In this document: positions 4,665 through 54,016 of the stretch, in pieces | Layout: each line of letters starts with the position of its first letter | How positions within the stretch are numbered: the first letter of the stretch is position 1 | Source: Nitrospirota bacterium | GTDB lineage: Bacteria > Nitrospirota > Thermodesulfovibrionia > UBA6902 | Assembly: GCA_016234115.1 (NCBI GenBank) | Contig: JACRHD010000021.1 | Coordinates: 109,395 to 173,394, forward strand | Direction: 5' to 3' | Length of the DNA: 64,000 nt | Program-made: the position numbers and the translations under genes | The notes under the pieces: model-generated | What the model saw: only the letters and a program-made list of their open reading frames with translations | The model's database searches: none | Told to the model about the DNA's origin: nothing

Positions 4665-4818
4665 CGGAACCCTTCAGTGAAGGATGGGGACCGGGTTATC
4701 CCCCTCTTTGGAAAAGAGGGGTTAAGGGGAGATTTTATAGAATAAGTTTACAAAAGCCCCCCTCGCCCCCCTTTGCTAAAGGGGGGGGAATTTCCACCCT
4801 TCACTGAATGGATACTCG
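4665..4818. repeat. SPPLAKGG-type palindromic element, copy 1
   Basis: cccctctttggaaaagagggg...cccccctttgctaaaggggggg, with outer ends cccttcagtgaagg / cccttcactgaatgg. Homologous core at about 10500-10625. Confidence 0.8.
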
Positions 4819-9021: not shown

Positions 9022-9468
9022 ATGGCCCTTAAAATATCCAGTCCGGCATTCGGGCAAAATGAAAATATACCAGCCAAATATACGTGCGACGGAAATGATA
9101 TCAATCCACCTCTCATTATTGACGGGGTCCCTGAAAAGGCAAAGTCCCTGGCGCTGATAATGGACGACCCGGACGCCCCGATGGGGACCTTTGTCCACTG
9201 GGTCGTATGGAATATCGATCCGAAGACAAAGGAGATCAAAGAGAACTCCGCGCCCAGGGGCGCTCAACAGGGTACGACTGATTTCAGGAGGCGCGATTAC
9301 GGAGGCCCCTGCCCGCCCTCCGGCGTCCACAGATACTTCTTCAAACTCTACGCCCTCGATGCCCCTTTGGCCGTGGGCACCGGAGCAAAGAAGACCGACC
9401 TGGAAAAAGCGATGAAAGGACACATCCTCGCGGAGGCGCAGTTGGTTGGGTTGTATAAGAGGTCGTAG
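9022..9468 (+). CDS. YbhB/YbcL family (PEBP/Raf kinase inhibitor-like) protein
   Basis: LALIMDDPDAPMGTFVHWVVWNI, GTTDFRRRDYGGPCPPSGVHRYFFKLYALD; caggaggt before ATG 9022. Confidence 0.9.
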   Translation: MALKISSPAFGQNENIPAKYTCDGNDINPPLIIDGVPEKAKSLALIMDDPDAPMGTFVHWVVWNIDPKTKEIKENSAPRGAQQGTTDFRRRDYGGPCPPSGVHRYFFKLYALDAPLAVGTGAKKTDLEKAMKGHILAEAQLVGLYKRS

Positions 9469-9492
9469 GGGCGAGGCGACCTCGCCCCTACG
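9464..9492. terminator. GTAGGGGCG hairpin 2 between convergent genes; its TAG is the stop of the preceding CDS
   Basis: cgtaggggcgagg-cga-cctcgcccctacg; stop codon TAG at 9466-9468; the convergent gene ends at 9498. Confidence 0.75.
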
Positions 9493-9497
9493 ACAGT

Positions 9498-11015
9498 TTA
9501 TTCCCTCACCGCCCCAAGCATCTCCCTGCACTCCTCCGCCTCGGTCATCTTTCCCCTCTTTTCATACCCGGTAATCAGTATCTTCAGCTTCTTCGCAAGC
9601 ACCCTTATAATGTTCTCCCTGTAATCCACCTCGGCCTCCTGCTTCAGCAATCTCATCAGCGACTTCACCCTGAACCTGTCCATAGCGGGATATCTCCGCG
9701 AAAGCTGATCTTCATGCCCGCCGTATTTGATGACGGAGAGAGACGGTTCAAGGCCCACGGGGTGATGCCGGGATATTTTAAGCCACAGGTCGTAGTCTTC
9801 GCAGACAGGCAGGGCTTCGTCGAACAGCCCGTATTTTTCGAGCAGTGTCTTTTTAACAAGCACACCCGAAGGCGACACGAGACAGCGTTCAAGCGACGGG
9901 CCCCATATCCAGCCTTCAGGTTTCTTATGGTGCCTGCACGGATTGACCCGCGACCCGTTTCGTATCCAGGCCTCTTCTGACTGAAGTATGTGGTAGAAAG
10001 GGAATTGTTTCAGGTAGGAAACCTGGTTCTTCAGCTTGTCCTTCTCCCAGCAGTCGTCGGAATCTAAAAAGGCTATCCATTCGGAATTCGCGCGTTTGAC
10101 GCCTTCATTCCTTGCACGCGAAGGGCCTGAATTGCGGGACAGGAAGACAGGCGTGACCTTTTTGCCGTAGCTCTTCAGGACGTCCCGTGTTTCATTGTCG
10201 GAGCAGTCGTCGACAATGATAATTTCATCCGGCATATGTGATTGGGACAGAACAGAATCGATTGAACGCTTTATCGTGTCCGGGCGGTTAAAAACCGGGA
10301 TGACCACTGTTATCCCGGCAGAGTTGTCGCCTGAAAAGCTGAAGATGTCCGCCATTTTTTTTGTAAACAAAGCAAGGTTCTCATTAAAATCCCGGCGCGT
10401 GTCATCGTCCGAATAATCCGTGCCGAATTTCAGACAATGAAAGCTGACGCCGGACCCGCTGAAAACCTTCGCCTGAGAAAAGCATTCCATATCAACGGCA
10501 TCGTATTTCCCCCCTCTTTGGAAAAGAGGGGCTGGGGGAGTTATTTCAAAAATTCCCCACTTCCCGTTGCAATGCTTCGCAGCAACGGGAGCCCGGCCCC
10601 CCTTTGCCAAAGGGGGGGATATGCTCAATAATGAATGGACATCCACTATCTTTTCATCGAACGGAACCGGGAGCCTCATATCGAGCTCTATCTCTTCACC
10701 GCTTTCGTTCATCACATGACGCGGTCTTAGCCATTCACCGAGGCGCTGTCCCCGGTCCATAACGCCGCAGGTCCCGATATTGACGACAAAGAGAGGCATC
10801 AGGTTGTCGAGTATCCAGCGCGCTGCCTCAGCGCTTGCATCAGGTCCGGCCCCTGTAGTCAGTACGAGAATGCCGGCGTTCAACCGCGCCTGCCCCTTAA
10901 GCGCCCCTGCTTTCAGCGCCTCGAGCGAATGCGCCGGTATGCCCTTTGATAAAAAAAAATCTTTCGGGACTTCCTTTTTGAGCGCGATAGTAATGACAAG
11001 CCTTATGCCCTTCAT
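9498..11015 (-). CDS. Fusion: N-terminal nucleoside phosphorylase-like domain plus C-terminal family 2 glycosyltransferase
   Basis: N-terminus IALKKEVP...GILVLTTGAGPDASAEAARWIL...VVNIGTCG...VDMECFSQA (phosphorylase/nucleosidase style); C-terminus ITVVIPVFNRPDTIKRSIDSVLSQ...IIIVDDCSDNETRDVL...NSGPSRARNEGV...IAFLDSDDCW (GT2). Confidence 0.8.
   Translation of the reverse strand: MKGIRLVITIALKKEVPKDFFLSKGIPAHSLEALKAGALKGQARLNAGILVLTTGAGPDASAEAARWILDNLMPLFVVNIGTCGVMDRGQRLGEWLRPRHVMNESGEEIELDMRLPVPFDEKIVDVHSLLSISPPLAKGGRAPVAAKHCNGKWGIFEITPPAPLFQRGGKYDAVDMECFSQAKVFSGSGVSFHCLKFGTDYSDDDTRRDFNENLALFTKKMADIFSFSGDNSAGITVVIPVFNRPDTIKRSIDSVLSQSHMPDEIIIVDDCSDNETRDVLKSYGKKVTPVFLSRNSGPSRARNEGVKRANSEWIAFLDSDDCWEKDKLKNQVSYLKQFPFYHILQSEEAWIRNGSRVNPCRHHKKPEGWIWGPSLERCLVSPSGVLVKKTLLEKYGLFDEALPVCEDYDLWLKISRHHPVGLEPSLSVIKYGGHEDQLSRRYPAMDRFRVKSLMRLLKQEAEVDYRENIIRVLAKKLKILITGYEKRGKMTEAEECREMLGAVRE
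10500..10632. repeat. SPPLAKGG-type palindromic element, copy 2, inside a CDS
   Basis: cccccctctttggaaaagaggggctgggggag...cccggcccccctttgccaaaggggggg; matches the core at 4700-4790. Central ttcccgttgcaatgcttcgcagcaacggga is a further hairpin. Confidence 0.85.
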
Positions 11016-11823: not shown

Positions 11824-12005
11824 AGAGGCGCAAGGGGGAGACTGCTACGGAATTTCTATACGACACCTATTCAAAAGAACCTTTGCAGGACAGAAAAATA
11901 TAATTATTAAAGATACAAAAGAGCGCAGAAGCAAAAATGTTAAGATGGTGTTTGTCGATTATAGAAATTCCGTAGCAGGCTCCCCTTTGCGCCTGTAAAG
12001 ATGTT
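11824..12005. repeat. MITE-like palindromic element, copy B (inverted relative to copy A)
   Basis: aggcgcaagggggagactgctacggaatttctatacgacacct ... ggtgtttgtcgattatagaaattccgtagcaggctcccctttgcgcctgtaaagatgtt. Confidence 0.85.
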
Positions 12006-12042
12006 AACCGGGATTTATGATGTTTGAAAGTTAATTACAGCC

Positions 12043-18128: not shown

Positions 18129-18332
18129 TCCCGGATTATTCATAAACTCCGGGAGGTATGATTCAAAAACATGTTGCAGCAAACCTTATCCGGAATTTTC
18201 GCGCGGCGTAAAAAGTACACTCTGTAATAGCAATAACTTGAAGAGCGAAAAGTCCCGACAAATAATCTCATTGCTTTTCAAGATGTTTTTGAATCATGCC
18301 TCCCGGAGTACGATATTTGTGAATAATCCGGG
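18129..18332. repeat. Long imperfect inverted repeat (arms of about 44-50 bp, loop about 110 bp)
   Basis: 18129-18172 tcccggattattcataaactccgggaggtatgattcaaaaacat vs reverse complement of 18283-18332. Confidence 0.8.
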
Positions 18333-52813: not shown

Positions 52814-54016
52814 TCAGAATTCCACTATGGATTCTATCGAATCGCCTTTATCGCCATGGTTTGTGCACGTCCCGGAGGAATTACAGGATTGCAGATTTCC
52901 TCCCGATTGCCCCAGCCACAACTTGTCGCTGAATGTTTCCAGAGATAATATATCGTTGCCCTTGTCGCCATGGTTTGTGCACGACGCAGAGGTATTACAG
53001 GATTTCAGTGTCCCGCCTCTTATTCCTATCCACAACTTGCCGCTAAACTCCGTCATAGACAATATATCATCGCCCTGGCCGCTATGGCTTGTGCATGTCC
53101 CGGAGGAATTGCAGGATTTAAAACTGCCTTCTTTCTGGCCTATCCATAATTTATTGTCAAACACTGCCATGGACAATATATCATCGCCCTTGTCGCCGTG
53201 GTTTGTGCACGACCCTGAGGAATTACAGGACTGCAGAATGCCGCCCGATTGCCCAAGCCACAACTTGCTGCTGAATGTTTCCAGAGACAATATATCATTG
53301 CCCTTGTCGCCGTGGTTTGTGCACGACCCTGAGGAATTACAGGACTGCAGAATGCCGCCCGATTGCCCCAGCCACAATTTGCTGCTGAATGATTCCAGAG
53401 AGTATATGTCATTGCCCTTGTCGCCGTGATTTGTGCACGTCCCCGAGGAATTACAGGACTGCAAGATGCCGCCTAATTGCCCCAGCCACAATTTGCTGCT
53501 GAATGATTCCAGAGAGTATATGTCATTGCCCTTGTCGCCGTGATTTGTACACGTCCCCGAGGAATTACAGGACTGCAACGTGCCGTATAATTGCCCCAGC
53601 CACAGCTTGATCGATATTGTCGGGAACAACCTTTTCTCGACTGTCCTCTGCGCGCTGCCGGCCATTCCGGTTGATGAGATCAGCACATTGCCCATGGGTG
53701 AATTTACGTCAGTGATTGAAACAGTGTACGAACCGCTGCCGAACTGTGTATCCGTAAAGACGGTCCCTCTCAGTGAAGGCGTATGCTTCAGCATAAAGAG
53801 TCCGTGCTGAAACCCTGCGTCCGCGACATAGTAGGCGTCATCGCCTGTTTCAAGGTTATAGGATATTGCGGTTTGCAGACCCGTGGTCCGGTTCAGGGTA
53901 ATTCCGATGACCGCCATCAGGCTCACCAGAAGAAGCACCGTCACCAGCGCAAAACCGCCCTGAGGAATAACATAGGTCTTATAAGACTTATATGACATAT
54001 TCTTCAAGTTCTTCAA
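52814..54016 (-). CDS. PilX-like prepilin with seven C-terminal 38-aa repeats (putative beta-propeller)
   Basis: N-terminus [32 protein letters not shown]; seven copies of [38 protein letters not shown]. Confidence 0.85.
52817..53608 (-). repeat. Coding tandem array, 114-bp unit x7 (last slightly short)
   Basis: Near-identical DNA units within the PilX-like CDS; 264 aa = 6x38+36. Confidence 0.92.

Follow-up and report, generated by a model that had tools for sequence, protein, structure and literature searches.

The window analysed in this work, a 64,000-nucleotide stretch of a Nitrospirota genome, contains a gene for a fusion protein whose reading frame runs through a palindromic repeat that has a relative between genes. 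The locus raises the question of what this insert is, how it came to lie inside a coding sequence and whether the gene that received it is still intact. The insert is, with high probability, one copy of a dispersed palindromic element that survives in coding sequence only where it lies in frame within a tolerant loop. The features concerned are collected in Table 1.

Table 1. Features of the host gene, of the palindromic element within it and of the intergenic relative (positions of the window)
Feature	Position	Strand	Basis
Host gene, 505 aa, phosphorylase-like + GT2 fusion	9498..11015	-	ORF, Pfam, ortholog fusion
Whole palindromic element, ~110 bp	10509..10618	.	Folding z, full-length relative in L124
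Hairpin B arm CCCCTCTTTGGAAAAGAGGGG	10511..10531	.	
Inner hairpin CCCGTTGCAATGCTTCGCAGCAACGGG, stems CCCGTTGC...GCAACGGG	10563..10589	.	Subfamily marker
Hairpin A arm CCCCCCTTTGCCAAAGGGGGG	10597..10617	.	
Element-encoded stretch, residues 131-171, SISPPLAKGGRAPVAAKHCNGKWGIFEITPPAPLFQRGGKY	10503..10625	-	Ortholog absence, low pLDDT
Intergenic relative (B hairpin, tails, A hairpin; no inner hairpin)	4701..4786	.	
Outer inverted repeat TTCAGTGAAGG/CCTTCACTGAA enclosing the intergenic relative	4673..4808	.	

The host gene and the element within it

The host protein is composed of a PNP/HpnG-like phosphorylase domain (residues ~3-226) followed by a GT2 glycosyltransferase domain (~233-420), with Pfam matches to PF01048 (2.2e-6) and PF00535 (1.3e-34) and a weak match of the phosphorylase domain to HpnG (TIGR03468). 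The same fusion is shared by its relatives, the closest named ones being Nitrospirota/Thermodesulfovibrionia MAGs such as Nitrospiraceae SURF_11 (~70% identity). A fold search with the model of the full protein gave GT2 only among the best 50 matches listed, and the position of the phosphorylase domain comes from sequence matches to Pfam and to MTA/SAH nucleosidases. The reading frame stays open across all the hairpins and reads ...VDVHSLL-SISPPLAKGGRAPVAAKHCNGKWGIFEITPPAPLFQRGGKY-DAVDMECF.... The initial annotation, which had described a palindromic element translated in frame at this place, with a further hairpin between its two arms, was borne out in both its sequences and its positions.

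The element consists of two CCCC-TTT-AAA-GGGG hairpins flanking the CCCGTTGC/GCAACGGG hairpin. When the single strand is folded, arm A base-pairs with arm B to give a single long stem, closed at its tip by the inner hairpin. The 126-nt region 10500-10625 folds as single-stranded DNA at -37.4 kcal/mol, compared with a mean of -20.3 for shuffled sequences (z -5.9), and none of 200 shuffles folded as well; as RNA, the same region gave a z of -5.5. A second MAG contains a full-length relative of this copy, with 78% identity over 130 nt, at a locus (L124) unrelated to that of the window. It had been proposed that the intergenic element itself recurs in the coding sequence, and this holds in part. 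A relative is present between genes, but it has no inner hairpin, and the outer inverted repeat that encloses it (TTCAGTGAAGG/CCTTCACTGAA) is confined to the intergenic copy; the two are therefore related and not identical.

The comparison with orthologs revealed that the element is absent in all 18 family members that reach the site, and none of the nine named MAG orthologs that were aligned has the ~40 amino acids. The insert had been read as an addition of this length between VDVHSLL and DAVDMECF. It is indeed in frame there, but it is not a pure insertion. The stretch that separates SLLS from D(A/I/V)xDMEC comprises ~15-16 variable residues in orthologs and ~40 element-encoded ones in the window protein; ~13-16 host codons are missing (for example VGKTCNGAFPDAWKRH in L114), and the net gain is ~24 residues. 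At codon level, the junctions lie approximately between AGC and ATA TCC CCC on the left and between GGG GGG and AAA TAC GAT on the right, which indicates that the residues equivalent to VGKTCNGAFPDAWKRH were lost from the window gene. The outermost residues at either end of the element-encoded stretch may be host-derived.

In the AlphaFold2 model of the window protein, residues 135-169 form the sole long segment with pLDDT <50 (~34 for the insert and >80 for its flanks); two further short stretches of low pLDDT occur in the GT2 part, and the rest is well modelled. The check on a structure model that had been suggested at the outset thus gave a disordered loop for the insert. The insert-free ortholog L114 was modelled with a short loop at the same site, fairly well defined (pLDDT ~79). 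The idea that the insert replaces a helix was dropped, as the ortholog model shows a loop with a turn of at most three residues. In the window gene, the element would have replaced a short variable loop before the DMEC motif of the phosphorylase, leaving the rest of the protein intact.

The host segment that is missing holds a conserved P...W(K/R) before the DMEC motif, which is kept by the orthologs, and to judge from the sequence its loss could impair the phosphorylase domain. This loss would be expected if the gene were decaying, with a dead phosphorylase and a reading frame that survives by chance or through a need for the GT2 domain. The dN/dS of the N-terminal part of the phosphorylase domain against the sister gene, 0.29, points in the same direction, as it lies above that of GT2 (0.137). 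However, the reading frame is unbroken, the protein retains the DMEC motif and the C-terminal part of the domain (dN/dS 0.135), and the dN/dS of the N-terminal part was 0.14-0.15 in the other comparisons, with 0.14 against L003. In relative-rate tests with seven outgroups, the window lineage did not evolve significantly faster (chi-square of 3.6 at most), and like inserts occur in genes, such as proS, that the cell probably needs. Ongoing decay is considered improbable. The outright pseudogene that the initial annotation had envisaged was rejected, since the frame is open, dN/dS ranges from 0.14 to 0.29 and amino-acid change is no faster than in the sister. If the insertion is young, however, decay may not yet be visible, and dS is high.

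The dispersed family and its in-frame copies

A pattern for the core hairpin gave 106 matches in the 3.5-Mb source genome and 0 for the reversed control, a count in which the variable gaps allow one hairpin to be matched several times. The loci fetched from this genome (G000) contain 60 element clusters with 83 hairpins, a lower bound for copies collected through pattern and DNA searches; copies were called intergenic or coding by a home-made codon score. Two hairpin types were distinguished, A (CCCCCTTTGnnAAAGGGGG) and B (CCCCTCTTTnnnAAAGAGGGG), with tails nAGGGG(G/A)GATTT, and they are frequently paired, facing each other ~90 bp apart. Seven copies of the inner-hairpin subfamily were found in the source genome, four of them in frame in coding sequences (the window gene, proS, cobD and mfd) and three outside. 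The hairpin is present in 48 of the 61 genomes searched, unevenly, with 240 matches in G005, 137 in G007 and none in many. The family is a non-autonomous palindromic element dispersed across the Thermodesulfovibrionia (Nitrospirota).

When the genome was searched for other insert-bearing proteins, as had been advised, the same element was found in frame in many of them. In the source genome, nine of the 60 clusters lie in frame inside long reading frames. The hosts are the window gene, ProS, Mfd, a TIGR01777 epimerase, a B12/radical SAM protein, CobD, a FabA-like protein, a DUF3786 protein and a membrane protein, the last one recognised solely by its coding potential. The epimerase contains a second insert as well, of a different hairpin variant. 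In relatives, in-frame hosts include a CusA/CzcA RND transporter, a P-type ATPase (with the insert at the same site in two genomes), a PcrA/UvrD-like helicase, FGAM synthase (purL), protoporphyrinogen oxidase, HemW, QueA, MnmE, a heptosyltransferase and glycosyltransferases. Curated models span the insert in proline--tRNA ligase (702 bits, residues 5-595), FGAM synthase (1670 bits, residues 20-1395) and CusA/CzcA (1129 bits, residues 2-1089). In the aligned cases, the inserts sit in loops whose length varies among orthologs. For annotators, this means that SPPLAKGG or PLFQRGG peptides in Nitrospirota proteins are likely to be repeat-derived.

A C-terminal extension of CobD (KIPLNPPFSKGEVSPLTRGD) is built from the same repeat (L107:1344-1403), and from this case protein ends may also be lengthened by the elements.

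The presence of in-frame inserts in essential, unrelated proteins, together with the strong RNA folding of the element, would also be compatible with removal of the insert after transcription or translation, in the manner of an intron or an intein. Against this, the inserts examined are open and keep the frame, which RNA splicing would not require. Inteins are far longer than ~40 amino acids, which counts against intein-like removal. Such processing is scarcely credible.

The coding capacity of the element was evaluated against shuffled sequences. Hairpins alone are open in 4-6 of the six frames. Multi-hairpin copies have 1.43 open frames of six (1.35 when shuffled) and single hairpins 3.78 (3.50 when shuffled), without a notable excess in either. 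The proposal that the element has been selected to be coding was rejected, as whole copies are no more open than their shuffles. These counts suggest an element that is not built to code and is nevertheless readable often enough for some copies to survive in coding sequence. The family would spread through some mobilising activity, probably acting on the hairpin or on a single-stranded form, and would land within genes as well as between them. A copy that falls in frame in a length-tolerant surface loop would be translated as a disordered Pro/Gly/Lys-rich peptide and survive selection, and the remaining insertions in coding sequence would be purged.

Recurrence at the same loops

The loop of ProS before LEDI(P/A)TP contains the element in G000, G005 and G007. 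At the same place, an unrelated GTAG-REP lies in frame in G001 (L171; confirmed at G001:C55:3888-3915) and a GTAG-REP-like hairpin lies in frame in G004 (L170), and most other genomes have no palindrome there. In the ProS tree, well-supported branches force three or more changes on the element-bearing genes, with empty sites between them; the corresponding minimum is two changes for Mfd and three for the epimerase. Empty sites keep the host residues KDW, which are missing from the filled ones, a difference that favours separate gains over exact loss of the element. Gene conversion or gene transfer could also have led to recurrence at the same loops.

As the ProS loop was apparently entered at least three times by the family and once by a GTAG-REP (G001), and the Mfd and epimerase loops behave alike, the elements might prefer the DNA of certain gene loops instead of inserting at random and being filtered afterwards. 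This preference appears rather doubtful. If it were true, a standing process may go on inserting disordered peptides into housekeeping enzymes, at set loops.

The same recurrence, in ProS, Mfd and the epimerase of several genomes, could be taken as a sign that the insert is an adaptive peptide, selected for a new function in its host protein. Yet the inserts found at one loop differ among orthologs in sequence, frame and length, the host proteins serve unrelated functions, the model shows the insert as disordered, and open frames are not enriched in intergenic copies. An adaptive role is thus regarded as very improbable, and survival of a dispersed element in a tolerant loop stays the preferred reading.

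Mobilisation and comparison with known elements

One form that the mobilising activity could take, compatible with the preferred reading, is that the element is a REP moved by a host RAYT (Y1_Tnp) transposase. Its paired inverted hairpins with conserved tails are REPIN-like, and RAYT-like genes exist, with six matches in the source genome. However, a GTAG or CGTC tag was found within 8 nt in none of the 60 clusters. Five of the six Y1_Tnp loci of the source genome were examined, and none of these five is flanked by the element hairpin within ~1 kb. The numbers of elements and RAYTs also show no parallel across the 61 genomes; G040, for example, has 17 RAYT matches and 5 hairpin matches, and G005 has 7 and 240, respectively. 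A RAYT origin is therefore a tentative option that is considered unlikely. The RAYTs may act instead on the GTAG-REPs, a separate family in the same genomes; none of these was seen beside the RAYT genes examined.

GTAG-tagged REPs (GTAGGGGC...GCCCCTAC), a different palindrome family, occur in the window at 9465-9491 and 2156-2184 and at ~30 places genome-wide. The copy at 9465-9491 adjoins the stop codon of the host gene, just past it.

The description of the element as MITE-like can be kept as a tentative one. Terminal inverted repeats are present, as arms A and B pair; no parent transposon was noted, and inspection by eye of the filled and empty pairs of proS and mfd showed no clean target duplication, the host bases at the junctions being lost or diverged.

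Palindromic elements that code for protein have been described for the most part in Rickettsia and Wolbachia; elsewhere, examples of intragenic REPs and MITEs are scattered. The Rickettsia palindromic elements (RPEs) are long-stem palindromes of ~100-150 bp, both intergenic and intragenic (Ogata et al. 2000, described in PMC2229807), which lie in frame in many conserved protein genes where the inserts appear to be tolerated (PMC2229807). The present element shares with them a single long stem-loop palindrome (126 nt, within the ~105-146 bp taken for RPEs; z -5.9 as DNA and -5.5 as RNA), the occupation of intergenic and coding sites in one genome (60 clusters, nine in frame) and the in-frame location in unrelated conserved genes (proS, mfd, cobD, purL, mnmE, queA and hemW). 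In contrast to RPEs, whose host is an obligate intracellular alphaproteobacterium, it belongs to Nitrospirota; it occurs in several frames and in both orientations, and the insertion site lacks some host residues. The resemblance to RPEs that the initial annotation had pointed out can thus be kept for behaviour alone (dispersed, in frame, palindromic). The sequence family appears to be new, as does the phylum for elements of this kind; a literature search of partial coverage found no report of this palindromic family in Nitrospirota.

Other systems were also compared. The intragenic GTAG/CGTC REPs are short palindromes, often in inverted pairs, that encode 20-80 amino acids within reading frames (Di Nocera et al. 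2013, PMC3733652); they are frequent in DNA repair and tRNA-related genes, and the same recB site is occupied in two Xanthomonas species (PMC3733652). The family described here differs from them in having no such tag (0 of 60 clusters) and no RAYT flanked by the element among the five examined. The same genomes also contain a true GTAG-REP family, which in G001 has inserted into proS. The Correia/NEMIS elements of Neisseria and the ERIC/RU-1 and YPAL/RU-2 MITEs are small non-autonomous repeats with readable frames that are fused in frame to genes (PMC2229807). Such ORF-carrying MITEs mostly have terminal inverted repeats and target duplications, whereas no clean duplication was seen here. PARCEL elements are palindromic DNA encoding protein inserts that are tandem, amphipathic and mostly found in surface proteins (PMC2996958); the inserts reported here are single, occur in cytosolic and membrane enzymes and are predicted to be disordered in the one case that was modelled.

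The present case stands out for its phylum, for the number of filled and empty pairs in core genes and for loops that were entered more than once. The family carries no tag and belongs to a free-living phylum, and the core genes of these genomes offer many orthologous sites, some filled and some empty. By comparing such sites, it becomes possible to ask by what means these elements spread when no known transposase is at hand, and how frequently selfish DNA turns into durable protein sequence.

Further repeats were observed in the window. A 186-bp MITE-like repeat with inverted ends (AGGCGCAAGGGGGAGACTGCTACGGAATTTCTATA) is located at 11826-12011 and 1937-2139, with more copies in L062, L058, L052 and L111. 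A 164-bp repeat with 31-bp inverted ends (ACTCCGGGAGGTATGATTC...) lies at 18146-18309; L038, from the same genome, contains a second copy at 93% identity. Finally, six tandem direct repeats of 114 nt (38 codons) occupy positions 52827-53696.
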